This document shows, in pieces, positions 42,467 to 52,119 of a stretch of 64,000 bases of DNA (position 1 is the first letter of the stretch; each line of letters starts with the position of its first letter). Source of the stretch: Segnochrobactrum spirostomi. Its GTDB lineage: Bacteria; Pseudomonadota; Alphaproteobacteria; Rhizobiales; Segnochrobactraceae. A program made the position numbers and the translations under genes. Below the pieces are notes generated by a model that saw nothing but the letters and a program-made list of their open reading frames with translations, did not search any database and was not told the origin of the DNA. The DNA is taken from the NCBI RefSeq assembly GCF_009600605.1, contig NZ_VWNA01000002.1, positions 1-64,000 on the forward strand, written 5' to 3'.

Positions 42467-43486
42467 CTATCGCGCGACTCCCTCCAAAATCGTCCGCGTC
42501 TCGGGCAGGCGAGCCAGCGACGCGTCGAGCCGGTCGCGCCAGCGGGGGCCGGCGGCGCGGGCGTCGGCATAGGCCTCAGTGAGGTCGTCCGGGCGGTCCT
42601 CGGCGAGGGCGCGGATCAGGAAGGCCGCCTGAAGGAGGTCCTTGCGCGCCTTCAGGGCGTCGCGGCCGGCGCGGCGGTCGGCGACGATCAGCTTGTGGAC
42701 GGCATAGCGCTCCGGCCGCGGGATCTGCACCATGACGCCCGAACGATACGGCACCGCGGCGAGGATCGGTTCGGCGATCAGGTAGTTCAGATAATGCAGC
42801 GACTGCGCGTGGACGCCGAGCGCCGCCAGCGGCCGTAGCTCCTCGGTGTCGCTGAAGCTCGGGGTGAGGAATTCGACGAGGAGGTCGTTGCGCGTCTGCC
42901 GCCAGCGCCAGGCCTTGGCGCGCTCGAGCGAGGGCGCCGGCTCGAAGGCGAAGTCGCCGAGCACCCGCTGCAACGGCTCGGACACGGTATCGGCGAGGGC
43001 GAGGGAGAGCCGCTCGAAGCTCGCGATGTCGAGATCGTCGGTCTGCGCCGCCTCGTCGAGCCCGTAGCGCAGCCCGAGCTCGCCCTCGTAGAGGCGGAAG
43101 GCGTGGGTGCCGACGATGGTGCCGCCGAGGCGGAAGACCCCGGCGCCGGCGAGCGCCGCGAGCAAGCTGCCGGTGCCGGCATCGACGCCCATGAAGCCCT
43201 CCGCCCGCAGGATGCGGATCAGGCGCGTGCGGGCGCGCCGCCGCGCCTCGCGGTCTGCCTTCAGCGCGGCGAGGCTGTCGAGGCGCTCGCGCAGGGCCTC
43301 GCTGTCCTCGCCGATATAGGCCTTCCGCACGTCGGAGCCGACCCGGTAGGTGTCGTACCAATAGATGCGGCCCCGCCGCTCGACCCGCGTCGGCGTGCCC
43401 CGGAGATCGGAAACCGCCTCGTCCTGCAGCGAGCGCAGGAGATCGTGATAGGCGGCGTGGGCGAGGGTCGAGTGGCGCGCGATCAT
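42467..43486 (-). CDS. GSU2403-type nucleotidyltransferase-fold protein (NTP_transf_8)
   Basis: Protein of 339 residues resembling the GSU2403 family. The N-terminal part has the family pattern GTPTRVERRGRIYWYDTYRV (about 30) and RKAYIGEDSEAL. A nucleotidyltransferase-like core follows with LGGTIVGTHAFRLYEGELGL (about 119) and the acidic TDDLDIAS (about 148), the likely metal-binding D-x-D. ATG 43486 is used; a TTG at 43495 is in frame. The biological role is unestablished; some nucleotidyltransferase-fold proteins act as toxins or antitoxins, but no small partner gene is visible beside it. Two strong inverted repeats sit directly upstream. Confidence 0.78.
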   Translation of the reverse strand: MIARHSTLAHAAYHDLLRSLQDEAVSDLRGTPTRVERRGRIYWYDTYRVGSDVRKAYIGEDSEALRERLDSLAALKADREARRRARTRLIRILRAEGFMGVDAGTGSLLAALAGAGVFRLGGTIVGTHAFRLYEGELGLRYGLDEAAQTDDLDIASFERLSLALADTVSEPLQRVLGDFAFEPAPSLERAKAWRWRQTRNDLLVEFLTPSFSDTEELRPLAALGVHAQSLHYLNYLIAEPILAAVPYRSGVMVQIPRPERYAVHKLIVADRRAGRDALKARKDLLQAAFLIRALAEDRPDDLTEAYADARAAGPRWRDRLDASLARLPETRTILEGVAR

Positions 43487-43490
43487 GATG

Positions 43491-43551
43491 TTCAACGGAA
43501 ATTATATCCGTTGAGCATAGGCGATCTTCAACGAACTTCAAGTTTGTTGAA
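43491..43551. promoter_or_regulatory. Paired TTCAAC inverted repeats before the nucleotidyltransferase-fold gene
   Basis: Two inverted repeats built on the same half-site. The first, 43492-43514, has perfect 8-base arms TCAACGGA / TCCGTTGA around a 7-base AT spacer and abuts the start codon. The second, 43527-43551, has 10-base arms TTCAACGAAC / GTTTGTTGAA with one mismatch and a 5-base spacer. The shared TTCAAC half-site and the position fit operators for a repressor, perhaps autoregulation (inference). Confidence 0.6.
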
Positions 43552-45366: not shown

Positions 45367-45819
45367 TGCGATCTCTTGCGGTTATATAAAATAAGTTAGG
45401 AGCGGAGCCGCTCGCTGCTAAGGAGCCCTTCGGGTGCGCTTCGTGTATAGGCCGGCGCTCTCGGCCGGTAAATACTCGCGCTCGTACCCGTAAATTCGAC
45501 GTCGAAGAAATCGTACTTCTTCGTTTAAAAAAACAAGCCGCCTTGGGCGTAAGGAACAAGTCGGGTTGAAGGCGGTCCGTATCGCGGCCCGCCGAGGGCT
45601 TGGCGGGGGCGTGAGATCGCGCTGGCGTGCCATCGGCGCGCCAGCGCCGGCCACTTTTCCGTTGGCGACGGGCAGTCTCGAAGGCCTCGAGCGACGAGGC
45701 TCGTCGCTTCGGCACGGCATCGCGCCACGCGCGGCCGTCCGTGCACCGCGTGCAGGCTTCCGATCGGTGCCTGCGATCACGGTCGCCCCGTGCGTATGAC
45801 GAGGCTCGAAGGGGGAATG
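45367..45819. other. Divergent intergenic region between mscS-like and autotransporter genes
   Basis: No supported gene. It contains a short AT-rich patch right before the channel gene (TTATATAAAATAA, 45382-45394). A perfect 12-base palindrome TTCGACGTCGAA (45495-45506) overlaps the left arm of a hairpin CGAAGAA-N7-TTCTTCG (45503-45523), followed by an A-rich run. These could be operators for either gene; none matches a regulator I can name. Confidence 0.4.
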
Positions 45820-48800
45820 ATGCGGCAGGTGGCGTTGCATGTCGGGTGCGGTGCAGGTGATCGGGTGGCGATGGTTCGGCATCGCGTCGTGGTGCTCCTG
45901 ACCGGCGTGAGTGCGCTCGCTGCGATCGCGGCGGGGGCGGAAGAGGCCCGCGCGGCGGATCCGATCCGCATCGTGAACACGGGTGCCAACGGCACCAATG
46001 CGACCACCGCCGCCGTCGCGACGCCGGGCCTCGCCGGAACGCCTGTGAACCTTACCAACGCCACGATCATCGCCAATGCGCGGCCCACCATCATCGAACT
46101 CGGCTCGGTCGGCGGGGCCGGTGGCGAGGGGCGTTGGCGCTTTCTCGACAAGAATATCGCGGGCGCCAAGGGCGGCGACGGCGGGGCGGTGACGCTCGTC
46201 GAAACGGCGACGGTCTCCGGCGGGTCGGAGAACACCGTCGCGACGCCGCTCCTCTTCCTCTATTCGAAGGGCGGCGCCGGCGGATACGGCTACAAGACCG
46301 ACAACGGCGGCATCGGCGCCGGCGGCCTCGGCGGAACCGTCACGCTCGACCTCCGCGCCAATGTCGCGACGACGGGCAGCGCGACCCCGGCACTCTATCT
46401 CCTCTCCCAAGGCGGCGCCGCCGGCGTTCGTCAGGGCACGGGCGGCGCCCCGGGCGGGACCAGCAAGGAGCGCATGCAGCGCGATTCCGGCGGGGCCGGC
46501 GGCGCAGTCGTCGCGACCCTCGCCGGCACAGCTACGGTCTCTACAACGGGCGCGAACGCGCCGGCCGTGGTGCTCGCCTCGAACGGTGGCGCGGGCGGCG
46601 ACGCGGACGGCACCACCAGCACCTATTATGCCTCGGAGGGCGGTGCCGGTGGTTCGGTCACGCTGACGAACAACGGCAAGATCGCAACCACCGGGGAGAA
46701 TTCGTCCGGCGTGATCGCCCAGAGCGTCGGCGGCAGCGGCGGCCGGGGCGGCGGCGGCGCCCTGACGGAGGCGGCGCCCGGCGCCGACGGCGGCAACGGC
46801 GGCGCGATCGCGGTGACCAATGCCGGCACCATCACCACGCGCGGCAACTACAGCTTCGGCATCATCGGGCAGTCCGTCGGCGGCATGGGCGGCCAAGGCA
46901 AGACGGCGATCTTCGGCTCGGGCGGGGCTGGCGGCGCGGCGGGCTCGGGCGGGGCCGTGAGCCTCGCCAATTCCGGTACGATCCAGACGCGAAAGATCGG
47001 CGCCACAGCGATCGTCGCCCAGAGCATCGGCGGCGGCAATGCGCTCGACGCGCTGCAGGCGGGCACACCGACCACCGATCATTCCGGTGGCAATGGCGGT
47101 GGCGGCGGTATCCTGCCGTGGAGCACGGGCGGTAGCGGCGGGCCGGGCGGGAATGGCGGCGCGGTCGTCGTCGTCAACAGCGGGACGTTAAGCACCGGCG
47201 GCAATGCGGCCTACGGCGCGCTCCTGCAGAGCATCGGCGGTGGCGGCGGCACCGGTGGCGGCAACGTCGGCATCGGGGCGTTCTTGGCGGTGGCCATCGG
47301 CGGCACGGGTGGCGGCGGCGGCGACGGCGGCGCGGTGACCTTCGACGGCACCGGCGGCAGGATCGGCACCACCGGCAACCGCGCGACGGGCGTGCTCGCC
47401 CAGTCGATCGGAGGCGGCGGCGGCACCGGCGGCTACGCGACCGCAGCGTCGGGCGGATTGCTCCTCTCGGCTTCGGTTGCCGTGGGCGGCAGCGGTGGCG
47501 GCGGCGGGGCGGGCGGCGTGGTCACCGTCCGCAATGCCTCGACGATCACCACCTGGGGCGAGGCTGCCGATGCGATCGCGGCCTCCAGCATCGGCGGCGG
47601 CGGTGGCACCGGCGGCGATGCCCGCGCCTATTCCGCATCGCTCTCCGCCGTGGTGTCGGGGCTGAGCCTGCCGGCCATCGCCATCTCGTCCGCCGTCGGC
47701 GGATCGGGCGGCGGCGGCGGCGCCGGCGGCACCGTCGATATTGCCAACACGGCGACCCTGGAGACCGGCGGCGTCGGCTCCGTCGGTATCCGAGCGCTGA
47801 GCGTCGGCGGCGGCGGTGGTGAGGGCGGCAACGCCCTCGCCTACGGGCTGTCGGTCGCGGTCAGCCCGGATTCGCTCGGCCTCAACGTCACGGCAGCGGT
47901 GGGCGGCAGCGGCGGAACCGGCGGCAATGGTGGGGCCGTCCATATCGACAACAGCGGCACGGTGGTGACGAGCCACGATTCGGCGGCGGGCCTCCTTCTT
48001 CAGAGCATCGGCGGCGGCGGCGGCGATGGCGGCGCGGCGGTCTCAACGGGGAACGCGCTCGGCCTCTATGCCGACGTCGCCTACGCCCTGGCGGTCGGCG
48101 GCCGTGGCGGAGGCGGCGGGTCCGGCGGGTCCGTCCAAGCCGACAATAGCGGCGTCGTGTCGACCAGCGGCAACAGCGCGGCGGCGCTGTTCGCCCAATC
48201 GGTCGGCGGCGGCGGCGGCAACGGCGGCGAGGTCGTCGCGACGGTCGCTTCCGGCCTCACCTTCGACAAGACCTTGAACGACCTCGCCCACGCACTGCCG
48301 CTCGCCGACAGCGTCACCGCCACGACGGTCATCGGCGGAACGGGCGGCAGCGGTGGCAATGGCGGGCGCGTCGTCATCGTGACGGCGGCGGGCTCCCGGC
48401 TGGAAACCGCCGGCGCCCAATCGGTGGGTCTCTTCGCCCAGTCCGTCGGCGGCGGCGGTGGGACCGGTGGCGGCGGCAGCGCGGCGGCGAAGGGTACGGT
48501 TCGCGCCGACCTGTCGATCGGCGGCCGCGGCGGCAGTGCCGGCAGTGGCGGCACCGTCGAGATCACCCAAGGCGGCACCATCGCCACCAAGGGCGATGCC
48601 TCCCATGGCATCCTGGCGCAATCGATCGGCGGCGGCGGTGGCAGTGGCGGCACGCTGAAGGCGGACCGCAGCAGCATTCCCGACAACGTCAATGCGCTCT
48701 GGCTCAAGCTTCGTGCCGAGACCAACGCCGATGCCTTCGACAAATGGGCGGCCGACAACAATCTGACGCCGAGCAAGGAGGCGATCGTCCTGTTCCTCAC

Positions 48801-51800
48801 CACGATGAAGACGGCAGTGGAGGGAACGGACTTCTATCAGAGCATCGCCAAGAGCTTCAAAGACTCGCAGTTCTACAAGGATTTTAGCGCATTCCGGGAT
48901 AATGCGCAGGCCTATCTGGCGGCGCGCCAGGCCAACGCGCTCCAACTGCCCGACGTGTCGCTCGTCCTGTCGGTCGGCGGCAACGGCGGGAGCGGTAATG
49001 TCGGCGGCGCGGTGACGGTCGACAACGCCGGCGCGATCGCGACCCTCGGTGATGGCGCGCACGGCATCCTGGCCCAGTCGGTCGGCGGCGGTGGCGGCCA
49101 AGGCGGCCTCGCTTATGCGTCCGGGGCGAGCAGCACCAACGTCAGCGGCCGGCTCGGTGGCAGCGGCGGCGGTGGCAACGCGGGCGGCACCGTCACGCTC
49201 TCGAACACCGGCTCGATTTCGACCGCCGGCGCAGCCGCCTATGGTCTGGTCGGTCAGTCGATCGGCGGCGGCGGCGGCGCGGGGGTCGTTTCGCCCGGGG
49301 CCGGCAACCGGAACATCGCGCTCAGCCTGTCGATCGGCGGGGCCGGCGGCACCGGCGCGGATGGTGGCGACGTGTCGATCGCCAATGCGGGCAGCATCGC
49401 CACCACCGGCAAGGAAGCGCATGGCCTCGTCGCCCAGAGCATCGGCGGCGGCGGCGGCATCTTCCTCGTCAATCCTAAGGCGGCGGCAGTGGAGACGCAG
49501 GTTGCGGCCGAGAGCGGCCTATCCCAGGCGATCGTCTCGGCCCTTCTGGATTTCTTCGGGTTCAGCGAACCCAAGGACGATGGTGCGAGCGATCCTGCGA
49601 CGTGGACCTCGGCGAGCCTCTCGTTGGGCGGTTCGGGCGGGGCGAGCGGCCACGGCGGGGCGGTCGGCGTCACCGTGTCCGGTACCATCTCCACGGCCGG
49701 CGCTGGGGCGTTCGGCGTCTTCGCCCAATCGGTCGGCGGCGGCGGTGGCATCGCGAACACCATCGGTGCCCCGGACGGCGTCACCTATTCGGCGTCGCTC
49801 GGGGCCTCGGGCGGAGCGGCCGGTGACGGCGGACCGGTCAGCGTCACGCTTGCCGGCGAAAATGCCCGGATCGCCACCTCCGGCAATCTCGCGACGGCCG
49901 TCTTCGCGCAATCGATCGGCGGCGGCGGCGGCTATGCCGGCGTCTCGAGTCTTCTCGGCAAGGACCTGCCTATCTATGGCGGCGCCGCGGGCACCAGCGG
50001 CGACGGCGGGCGGATCGTGATTCAAAGCGATCCCGCCGCCTCCGGTTTCGCCCTCGAGACGAGCGGGACCACCGCACACGGCATCTGGGCGATGTCGATC
50101 GGCGGCGGCGGTGGCGCATCGGCGCGTCTTATGCAAGGCCCGAACGCGGAACACCCCGCCCCGGAGAACGCCGACGCCTCCGCCCGCGGCACGGGCCAGG
50201 GCGGTGCCATCGACATCACTCTGGCGGGCGGTTCGATCTCGGCGACCGGTGCCGGGTCGTTCGGCATCCTCGCTCAGAGCGGTTCCCAGAATGCCGACGG
50301 CTCGTTCGATGCGACGCGACGCGGCGGCGATGTCACGATCGATTATACCGGCACGATCGAAGGCGGCTCCGGCGATGGCGCGGCCATCGGGATCGACGGC
50401 GGCGATCAGAACTTGATCGAGATCGGTGCCGGCTCCGTCATCAGCGCGGCGTCCGGCAAGGCGATCCTGACGTCGTTCGGCAACGATATGGTCGTGAACT
50501 ACGGGACCGTCGTCGGCGATGTCGACCTCGGCACCGGTGAGACCACCGAGCGCAATCAATTCACCAACGAAGCGGGTGGCACCTACCGCAGCGCCGGGAC
50601 GGGCACGATCAAGCTCGGCGGTCCCGGCGCCGGGGCCTATGCGAACCTCTTCCAGAACCTGGGCACTTTCGATGTGGGGGGTGTCGGTCAGATCGCGACG
50701 GCGAGTGTGACGCAGGGGACGCTGGACCTCGGCGGTGTGCTGCTCGCGGACGTGAGTCGGATTGGGGCCAACGTGCAGTCGAACGATGTCCTGACGGCCG
50801 ACCGCCTCAAGGTGAGTGGCGTGGCGATCAAGCCTTATGCGGTGAACGGTCTGCTGCCGGGCAACTTCACCGTGGTGACGACCGCCAACATGCTGTTTGG
50901 CGGGGTGCCGGCGACGGCGGGGGCGAGCCCGGTGAGCCCGATCTCGTGGAGCGTGGCGCAGACCGGCAACAGCCTGGTGATCTCGCCGTCGGCGGCGTTC
51001 CTGGCCAAGGCGCAGAGCCTGACGTCGCGGGCGCTGACCAAGACCGAGCGCTCGATGCTTCAGAGCGCGCAGACCGCCTGGGATTCGAGCAATGCCGGGA
51101 TGGCGGGCTTCTTCGCCCAGGCGGCGAACCTGACGACGAAGCAGCAGTTCAAGGCGCTGGTAAACAGCGCGAGCGCGTCGGAGAGCAACAACCAGCCGGC
51201 GGTGGGTCAGTCGTTCCAATCGCTCGATTCGCTCAATGCGTCGCTGAGCTGCCCGGCGTTCGAGGGTGACGGCTTGCGCATTCACGAGGGCGAGTGCGTG
51301 TGGTCGCGGGTTGTGGGCTCGCGGATGGCACGGTTCGGCGGCAGCGACGGAGAAGGCTTCAACCAGAGCGGCATGAGCTACCGGGTCGGTGCGCAATGGG
51401 AGGTGGCGCCGGATTGGTATCTCGGGGCGACGGCGGCCTACAACATGAGCTGGCTGCAGGCGAGCAGCGGGCTGAGCTCGACGAACGGCACGGGCGGCGA
51501 CGTCTCGGTGGCGCTGAAGCACCAGATGGGGCCGTTGTTGCTGGCGGCGTCGCTGCAGGCCGGCTACGGCACGTACGAGACGAACAACACGCTGGTGGTC
51601 GGGACGCAGCAGGGCGCGGCGTCGAACGACACGGACCTCTGGACGGCCGGCCTGAAGCTGCGGGCGGCGTACGAGTTCGCATTCCAGACGTGGTATGTGC
51701 GGCCCTATGTGGACGTGAACGTGCTGCATCTTTCGATGCCGGGCTACACGTTCGCGGCGAACGGGATGAGCGTGTCGTCGGGCTCGATCGACCATTGGAG

Positions 51801-52119
51801 CGGCGTGCTACAGCCGGTGCTCGAGGTTGGGTCACGGGTCAATGTCGGGGACGGTGCGTGGGTTCGGCCCTATGTCGGGGTGGGTGGCATGTTCGTGGCG
51901 GGCAACAGCATCAACACGACGTCGACGTTCTCGTACGGGGGCACGCAGGGGATCTCGTACGAGACGAGCAACGAGATGCCGAATGCGCTGCTCGACGTCG
52001 GCGGCGGCGTGCAGTTCATGAACCGGGACGGCTACGAGGTACGCGGCCAATACCGCGCCCAGCTCGCCAACGACTTCGTCGGCCAGGAACTCTCGCTCCG
52101 CCTCTCCATGAAATTCTGA
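45820..52119 (+). CDS. Giant glycine-rich autotransporter adhesin-like protein (copy 1)
   Basis: Type V secreted surface protein of about 2,099 residues. A signal peptide (VRHRVVVLLTGVSALAAIAA, cleavage near ARA-A) leads to a passenger of tandem, glycine-rich beta-helix-like repeats, each with VAQSIGGGGG followed by a GGxGG turn, from about residue 90 to 1,440. Two non-repeat helical inserts interrupt it (about 947-1044 and 1220-1265). A linker follows, then a C-terminal beta-barrel (about 1816-2099) ending LSLRLSMKF with terminal Phe. ATG 45820 has AAGGGGG upstream; in-frame GTG 45790, ATG 45796 and ATG 45817 are alternatives. The last 1.3 kb is nearly identical to the next autotransporter. 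Likely adhesion or biofilm role (inference). Confidence 0.88.
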   Translation: MRQVALHVGCGAGDRVAMVRHRVVVLLTGVSALAAIAAGAEEARAADPIRIVNTGANGTNATTAAVATPGLAGTPVNLTNATIIANARPTIIELGSVGGAGGEGRWRFLDKNIAGAKGGDGGAVTLVETATVSGGSENTVATPLLFLYSKGGAGGYGYKTDNGGIGAGGLGGTVTLDLRANVATTGSATPALYLLSQGGAAGVRQGTGGAPGGTSKERMQRDSGGAGGAVVATLAGTATVSTTGANAPAVVLASNGGAGGDADGTTSTYYASEGGAGGSVTLTNNGKIATTGENSSGVIAQSVGGSGGRGGGGALTEAAPGADGGNGGAIAVTNAGTITTRGNYSFGIIGQSVGGMGGQGKTAIFGSGGAGGAAGSGGAVSLANSGTIQTRKIGATAIVAQSIGGGNALDALQAGTPTTDHSGGNGGGGGILPWSTGGSGGPGGNGGAVVVVNSGTLSTGGNAAYGALLQSIGGGGGTGGGNVGIGAFLAVAIGGTGGGGGDGGAVTFDGTGGRIGTTGNRATGVLAQSIGGGGGTGGYATAASGGLLLSASVAVGGSGGGGGAGGVVTVRNASTITTWGEAADAIAASSIGGGGGTGGDARAYSASLSAVVSGLSLPAIAISSAVGGSGGGGGAGGTVDIANTATLETGGVGSVGIRALSVGGGGGEGGNALAYGLSVAVSPDSLGLNVTAAVGGSGGTGGNGGAVHIDNSGTVVTSHDSAAGLLLQSIGGGGGDGGAAVSTGNALGLYADVAYALAVGGRGGGGGSGGSVQADNSGVVSTSGNSAAALFAQSVGGGGGNGGEVVATVASGLTFDKTLNDLAHALPLADSVTATTVIGGTGGSGGNGGRVVIVTAAGSRLETAGAQSVGLFAQSVGGGGGTGGGGSAAAKGTVRADLSIGGRGGSAGSGGTVEITQGGTIATKGDASHGILAQSIGGGGGSGGTLKADRSSIPDNVNALWLKLRAETNADAFDKWAADNNLTPSKEAIVLFLTTMKTAVEGTDFYQSIAKSFKDSQFYKDFSAFRDNAQAYLAARQANALQLPDVSLVLSVGGNGGSGNVGGAVTVDNAGAIATLGDGAHGILAQSVGGGGGQGGLAYASGASSTNVSGRLGGSGGGGNAGGTVTLSNTGSISTAGAAAYGLVGQSIGGGGGAGVVSPGAGNRNIALSLSIGGAGGTGADGGDVSIANAGSIATTGKEAHGLVAQSIGGGGGIFLVNPKAAAVETQVAAESGLSQAIVSALLDFFGFSEPKDDGASDPATWTSASLSLGGSGGASGHGGAVGVTVSGTISTAGAGAFGVFAQSVGGGGGIANTIGAPDGVTYSASLGASGGAAGDGGPVSVTLAGENARIATSGNLATAVFAQSIGGGGGYAGVSSLLGKDLPIYGGAAGTSGDGGRIVIQSDPAASGFALETSGTTAHGIWAMSIGGGGGASARLMQGPNAEHPAPENADASARGTGQGGAIDITLAGGSISATGAGSFGILAQSGSQNADGSFDATRRGGDVTIDYTGTIEGGSGDGAAIGIDGGDQNLIEIGAGSVISAASGKAILTSFGNDMVVNYGTVVGDVDLGTGETTERNQFTNEAGGTYRSAGTGTIKLGGPGAGAYANLFQNLGTFDVGGVGQIATASVTQGTLDLGGVLLADVSRIGANVQSNDVLTADRLKVSGVAIKPYAVNGLLPGNFTVVTTANMLFGGVPATAGASPVSPISWSVAQTGNSLVISPSAAFLAKAQSLTSRALTKTERSMLQSAQTAWDSSNAGMAGFFAQAANLTTKQQFKALVNSASASESNNQPAVGQSFQSLDSLNASLSCPAFEGDGLRIHEGECVWSRVVGSRMARFGGSDGEGFNQSGMSYRVGAQWEVAPDWYLGATAAYNMSWLQASSGLSSTNGTGGDVSVALKHQMGPLLLAASLQAGYGTYETNNTLVVGTQQGAASNDTDLWTAGLKLRAAYEFAFQTWYVRPYVDVNVLHLSMPGYTFAANGMSVSSGSIDHWSGVLQPVLEVGSRVNVGDGAWVRPYVGVGGMFVAGNSINTTSTFSYGGTQGISYETSNEMPNALLDVGGGVQFMNRDGYEVRGQYRAQLANDFVGQELSLRLSMKF
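50821..52119 (+). repeat. 1.3-kb near-identical direct repeat, copy 1
   Basis: This stretch, encoding the linker and whole beta-barrel of the first autotransporter, matches 57825-59123 at the same length. By eye I find only about five base differences, all in the first 380 bases, one changing an amino acid (T to N in QSAQ-AWDSS). The rest appears identical up to the stop codon, after which the sequences diverge at once. Confidence 0.9.

Follow-up and report, generated by a model that had tools for sequence, protein, structure and literature searches.

A stand-alone PF12281 nucleotidyltransferase that probably binds and represses its own gene through paired palindromes of variable sequence

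Which protein reads the two inverted repeats that stand directly before a lone nucleotidyltransferase (NTase) gene, and what purpose would such reading serve? The gene lies on the minus strand of the window (the whole 64,000-nt stretch of Segnochrobactrum spirostomi DNA that was analysed) at 42467–43486, with its ATG at 43486, its stop at 42467 and a product of 339 aa. The longest open reading frame opens further upstream at a TTG (43495) inside the proximal palindrome, but this start is unnecessary and ATG 43486 is preferred. In a Pfam profile search the protein matches PF12281 (NTP_transf_8) with 227.7 bits against a curated cut-off of 26.3 over aa 105–309, and the catalytic domain thus spans 42560–43174 of the minus strand (codons 105–309). 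PF12281 is the protein's only Pfam match; neither a helix-turn-helix nor another known DNA-binding domain is found, and NCBIfam gives no useful match. A search of the open-access literature, with most subscription journals and all of bioRxiv outside its scope, found no paper on the function of the PF12281/NTP_transf_8/GSU2403 family of nucleotidyltransferases; the name GSU2403 alone occurs in one paper on Geobacter IHF genes (PMC7962754).

The putative proximal operator palindrome (43488–43518, half-sites TGCTCAACG and TGTTCAACG) has 15-nt arms that are 87% complementary and 1 nt apart, and it ends 1 bp before the ATG. The putative distal palindrome (43527–43551, half-sites TTCAACAAA and TTCAACGAA) has 12-nt arms, 92% complementary and likewise separated by 1 nt; the two centres are 36 bp apart. 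The preliminary description's two inverted repeats before a GSU2403-type gene, one abutting the start codon, are thus real. Taken singly, both palindromes are ordinary for this GC-rich window, where others score equally high or exceed them; counted loosely, the window contains 28 pairs of similar palindromes, partly nested. What distinguishes the pair is its conservation in relatives, not the score of either palindrome. Within the 5.4-Mb genome, the pattern TTCAACNNANNTNNNNTNNGTTGA occurs at 0 or 1 mismatch solely at these two sites and at 2 mismatches in two further places, while an exact TTCAAC-N11-13-GTTGAA is present at 43527–43551 alone. A strict scan found no consensus promoter; a looser scan gave mixed, not uniform, promoter placement and is not relied on.

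The paired arrangement recurs widely. Among non-redundant loci (2 of 209 dropped upstream and one more downstream), a matching palindrome pair with a score of at least 34 is found in 118/207 upstream regions, against 1/206 downstream regions and 2/414 shuffles. The 89 upstream regions that lack a pair at this score include distant members with one wider palindrome. A survey of single palindromes in the first set of loci, within 200 bp upstream of the gene or downstream of the stop codon (1 of 126 loci dropped, too near a contig end), points the same way: the best palindrome scores at least 8 in 115/125 upstream, 30/125 downstream and 13.8/125 shuffled regions, and at least 11 in 70, 5 and 0.2, respectively. 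In distant members such as L121, L122, L134, L143 and similar ones the single palindrome measures ~40–43 bp, which exceeds the 30-bp type by about one turn of the helix. At L009, a third palindrome of TTCAACA type (one mismatch) occurs at about 553–584, downstream of the gene by ~0.9 kb; of the reading frames on its two sides, one resembles by eye a PIN-domain toxin and the other an HTH protein.

The letters themselves change from relative to relative. Half-sites include TGTTCAACA, TGTGCATCA, TACCCTACA, TTATACGCA, TGCCTAGCA and others; written with alternative letters, the types comprise TGTTCAACA, TGTGCA(T/G)CA, TACCC(T/C)ACA, TGCCAC(A/G)CA, TGCCTAGCA, TTATAC(G/T)CA, TTATAAGAA, TATTACCAT and more; TGTGCATCAA and TACCCTACAA are half-site types non-cognate to the window protein. 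The first T and the inner CA are mostly retained. The expectation that the repeats would be conserved upstream of orthologues therefore holds for their architecture (118/207) and fails for their sequence between diverged relatives. This change is matched by change in the protein.

That match was sought by comparing operator distance with each protein column after removal of overall protein distance, over 117 sequences and 281 columns (1 of 118 loci dropped for an unclear consensus). The top columns are K55 (z 5.1), V35 (4.3), D61 (2.7), T46 (2.6), A95 (2.5) and V53 (2.3). Four of these six fall inside the 30 tested columns of residues 26–59 (chance ~0.0014); D61 and A95 rank high though they lie outside the predicted sheet. 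In 58 tree-independent pairs, taken from a tree built from residue 105 onward only, K55, V35 and V53 are the top three of 251 columns and T46 is 10th, though no column passes Bonferroni (best p 0.0017; threshold 0.0002). Where all four residues are alike (n = 25), operator mismatch is 0.084, compared with 0.256 in the other pairs (n = 33), which are also more distant. Residues 35 and 55 alone are equalled or bettered by 138/4826 random column pairs, and below 45% catalytic identity agreement at these two positions goes without operator similarity (mismatch 0.74 vs 0.67). The covariation is partly confounded by descent.

The signature at positions 35/46/53/55 maps onto the half-site class. V(T/S)VK goes with TGTTCAACA, R(K/R)MS with TGTGCA(T/G)CA, KQRQ with TTATAC(G/T)CA, KAMF with TGCCTA(G/T)CA and VEKR with TTATAAGAA; Asp at 55 mostly accompanies TACCC half-sites, and Glu at 55 mostly CCAC. 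Judged from these alignments, reader residues and operator appear to have changed together, and four amino acids appear to go far in predicting the DNA site.

These four positions were picked on the same 117 sequences that yield the covariation, so new data are provided by the plasmid set alone. Of 22 plasmid relatives fetched, 19 are scorable; three have a pair score below 34, namely L263, L285 and L260, whose one palindrome shows the TTCAACA half-site that was predicted for it. For 19/19 scorable loci, the half-site predicted by the signature differs from the real one at no more than 2 of 9 bases (mean 0.53 mismatches). The nearest catalytic relative used as predictor achieves this in 17/19 (mean 0.95), and thus descent alone explains much of the success; a random operator is off by 4.3. 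At 4 of the 19 loci the catalytic part has full identity, at two-decimal precision, with a training sequence. For the other 15, means worked out by hand from the per-locus rows are 0.53 mismatches of 9 for the signature and 1.2 for the nearest catalytic relative. L286 and L300 are the most telling cases: at L286 the signature is off by 1 and the nearest catalytic relative (52% identity) by 5, and at L300 the values are 2 and 4.

Structure prediction gives the co-varying residues a plausible setting. Taken as a whole, the full-length AlphaFold2 (AF2) model, built from five sequences, is of poor quality (mean pLDDT 53), yet its pLDDT reaches 83–87 at residues 31–60. A model of the N-terminal fragment gives pLDDT ~90 on strands 31–37, 40–49 and 52–60, and somewhat lower values along most of the helix at 63–95. 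The AF2 models and the covariation together define a predicted three-stranded β-sheet DNA reader (43307–43396, minus strand, codons 31–60) containing V35, T46, V53 and K55, with the long predicted helix behind it (43202–43300, minus strand, codons 63–95). In the models residues 35, 46, 53 and 55 alternate along the strands, consistent with one sheet face; columns assigned to that face have a mean covariation of 0.19 vs 0.015 elsewhere (p 0.02, the face having been chosen after the data were seen). Fold searches with the full-length and N-terminal models returned no significant structural match. Arm-binding domains are among the weak ones (Foldseek: 3rmp, E 0.61; 3jtz, E 0.87; VIA: 3jtz, Z 3.2, rmsd 4.5 over 50 residues). 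Sequence searches for relatives of solved structure found none with 5 sequences and chance-level matches only with 34.

Taken together, the locus is best explained, with good though not complete confidence, as a stand-alone NTase that would bind its own operator and probably represses itself. The covariation bears on an unlikely alternative, in which the palindromes are operators of another, unlinked host regulator and the NTase gene is merely its target. The protein's want of any Pfam-recognised DNA-binding domain would suit such a regulator, but the operator differs among relatives and tracks residues of the NTase protein itself, which disfavours it. A regulator elsewhere that shares the palindrome, a possibility raised in the preliminary description, did not emerge from the genome-wide search: sites within 1 mismatch lie solely at this gene, and no regulator gene recurs beside it in relatives. 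Across 11 genomes, exact TTCAAC palindromes occur in 27 places, 18 at their own gene and 9 elsewhere. Against 5 places for a reversed control pattern, these 9 are no clear excess, so a regulon reading was dropped.

PF12281 is found patchily, in 87/397 genomes of the order, and homologues occur in 451/72,556 plasmid records, query coverage reaching 80% or more in 167 of these. A phage origin was rejected, as a search of 50,697 phage records gave no match and no copy was confirmed in viral contigs. No neighbour family of reading frames of at least 60 aa within 1.2 kb appears at more than 5 of 209 loci, so no partner gene recurs, AbiEi-type winged-helix partners included. The gene stands alone, as first described, and the one-gene regulated unit then offered as a possibility is now well supported by the lone gene, the conserved architecture and an N-terminus that co-varies with the palindromes. 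Its flanking genes in the window, an MscS-type channel and an amino-acid permease, have no evident link to the NTase. Elsewhere in the window, 45790–52119 holds a glycine-rich, repetitive reading frame of 2109 aa that has no Pfam match at 1e-4 and by eye may be autotransporter-like.

The plasmid copies raise the other alternative of comparable, low probability: that the protein serves plasmid maintenance or incompatibility and uses the palindromes as its binding centre, transcriptional control being secondary. Many copies sit on plasmids, and the window contig, which carries a RepC replication gene ~57 kb beyond the NTase gene, is probably a RepABC-type plasmid or chromid. RepC-type genes lie at G000:C2:100199-100717 (the window contig) and G000:C3:73756-74277, and C2 and C3 are probably both RepABC replicons. 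In ten plasmid neighbourhoods of 10–17 kb the neighbours differ every time, and in 12 further short plasmid stretches two repeat an earlier-seen neighbour. repABC is close in 2/10 neighbourhoods and one further copy adjoins a ParB-family gene, but in the other 8/10 the sequence that was read contains no rep (plasmid replication) genes. Copies adjacent to ribosomal L9 or S1, presumably chromosomal, also argue against a plasmid-specific role. They share a common neighbourhood in four genomes each (L194, L228, L231 and L251 for L9; L193, L224, L241 and L247 for S1; ribosomal identity checked by Pfam on one member per group) and keep the paired architecture. The scored members (three for L9, all four for S1) differ in operator and signature, pointing to divergence in situ or to successive replacements at a single site.

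The palindromes look like DNA operators, not RNA hairpins. Centre spacings cluster near 36, 45 and 56 bp, with a period of ~10 bp. At a score of at least 32, 120/124 pairs are spaced 34–40, 43–49 or 53–61 bp; at a score of at least 34 (n = 118) the circular R is 0.51 at the ~10-bp period, against a maximum of 0.30 in a null of 2000 smoothed draws. Such helical phasing is as expected if proteins on both sites touch. The repeats acting as RNA, whether as leader hairpins or as a small antitoxin RNA of the type III toxin-antitoxin kind, is a very improbable reading. It would fit the position of the two palindromic repeats, immediately ahead of a gene that may encode a toxin, and the ~36-nt unit resembles the repeat unit of type III arrays. 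An RNA hairpin in a transcript, however, tolerates G-U pairs and would favour G/T mismatches, whereas arm mismatches on the sense strand number 73 G/T vs 76 A/C. With this symmetry and no G-U bias, there is no sign of either strand being kept as folded RNA, and the RNA reading was rejected; moreover, the spacing follows the DNA helix and the near repeat extends to the start codon. Just as improbable is a mobile element that carries the gene and has the palindromes as its ends or attachment sites. Patchy occurrence, frequent residence on plasmids and the third copy at L009 would agree with this, but the two sites stand on the same side of the gene, a downstream pair is found in 1/206 regions only and the window genome has no third copy within 1 mismatch.

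G126, T149, D151, D153, H264, K265 and K279 are present in 117/117 aligned relatives, including both Asp of the D-x-D motif (43028–43036, minus strand, codons 151–153), and R272, D283 and Q286 in 116/117. A diverse 34-sequence alignment leaves G126, T149, D151, D153, K265, D283 and Q286 invariant, and R272 is not retained in its more distant members. The Gly motif and D-x-D of the NTase superfamily signature are intact. Substitutions in AbiEii at its first Gly, at the Asp pair and at K173, R180 and D192 abolish toxicity (PMC3985639). The PF12281 protein has the Gly motif, D-x-D, K-x6-R and later Asp in common with AbiEii as described there, K265, R272 and D283 standing where AbiEii has K173, R180 and D192. 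The window protein does not match the AbiEii/DUF1814 profile (PF08843), which 1 of 34 relatives matches (E 6.8e-4), nor any PADLOC defence profile at E 1, where 1 of 34 relatives matches at E 0.043. PADLOC lends no support to the toxin-antitoxin-like reading offered in the preliminary description. Given the retained catalytic residues, their AbiEii-like spacing and the single relative that reaches the AbiEii profile, the enzyme is probably active and may be toxin-like. Twelve of 209 family reading frames (e.g. L041 and L033) are longer, with ~120–160 extra residues after the family domain.

The self-repressing NTase may be pictured as follows. The N-terminal domain, three β-strands and then a helix, would read one half-site, and a presumed dimer would cover one ~30-bp palindrome. 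Two dimers would then sit on the two palindromes with centres ~3.4, 4.3 or 5.3 helical turns apart. Since both sites occupy the expected place of the promoter and the near one touches the start codon, the bound protein would shut off transcription of its own gene. The paired architecture and its helical phasing, the character of the sites as DNA and not RNA, the reader–operator covariation and the lone gene are computed directly from the loci; binding, dimerisation and repression are what we infer from them. Tight autorepression might hold down a nucleotidyl transfer that is costly or toxic, its likely purpose given that the catalytic residues are intact and resemble the AbiEii type, and the gene could be released at low protein levels, for example when a plasmid enters or is lost. 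Because reader and operator change together, each copy would control mainly itself.

More tentatively, and with somewhat less than even confidence, PF12281 might be read as a family of one-gene, self-gated, toxin-like NTases in which the effector is its own repressor and a four-residue code gives each plasmid or locus a private switch. If so, entry into a naive cell would release the gene and cause a burst of NTase, an addiction or exclusion device with no separate antitoxin; if the NTase is toxic, a single protein would thereby form a toxin-antitoxin-like unit. The covariation would amount to a natural recognition code for a β-sheet DNA-binding domain, with more than 100 matched protein–DNA pairs, and to a case of regulator specificity that keeps shifting under a constant architecture. 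For the PF12281 family, such sequence-derived data point to a concrete role, that of an enzyme controlling its own promoter.

Several known systems share parts of this design. AbiE is a type IV toxin-antitoxin system consisting of the AbiEi repressor and the AbiEii DUF1814 NTase (PMC3985639, accessible parts). It also has two inverted repeats over its promoter, and autoregulation, shown in AbiE, is probable here. AbiE comprises two genes, whereas the PF12281 unit is one gene with no antitoxin; the AbiE reader is a winged helix in the partner, whereas the PF12281 reader is a predicted three-stranded β-sheet within the NTase itself. The AbiE repeats are described in the same source as 23-3-23, compared with ~30-bp palindromes with centres 36, 45 or 56 bp apart in the PF12281 family. 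The MenAT NTase toxins of Mycobacterium tuberculosis are of DUF1814 type, and in one MenAT the antitoxin autoregulates via several inverted repeats (PMC11375011; PMC10435456; PMC7319586, in the portions accessible). As far as these portions go, control there is by a separate MenA antitoxin, unlike in the lone PF12281 gene.

The predicted reader resembles the arm-binding domain of integrases (Tn916, lambda), likewise three β-strands followed by one helix. In the Tn916 integrase the domain has this order, and integrase arm-binding domains read the DNA major groove with the sheet (PMC8138268, accessible parts). The likeness is an analogy, since structural searches did not establish homology. Unlike in integrases, the PF12281 reader is fused to an NTase and linked to palindromes at its own promoter. 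BirA and PutA are enzyme-repressors that bind their own operator, with conserved operators and metabolic ligands. The PF12281 protein would resemble them in joining an enzyme to putative own-operator binding, and it differs from them in that the operator of PF12281 genes is hypervariable.
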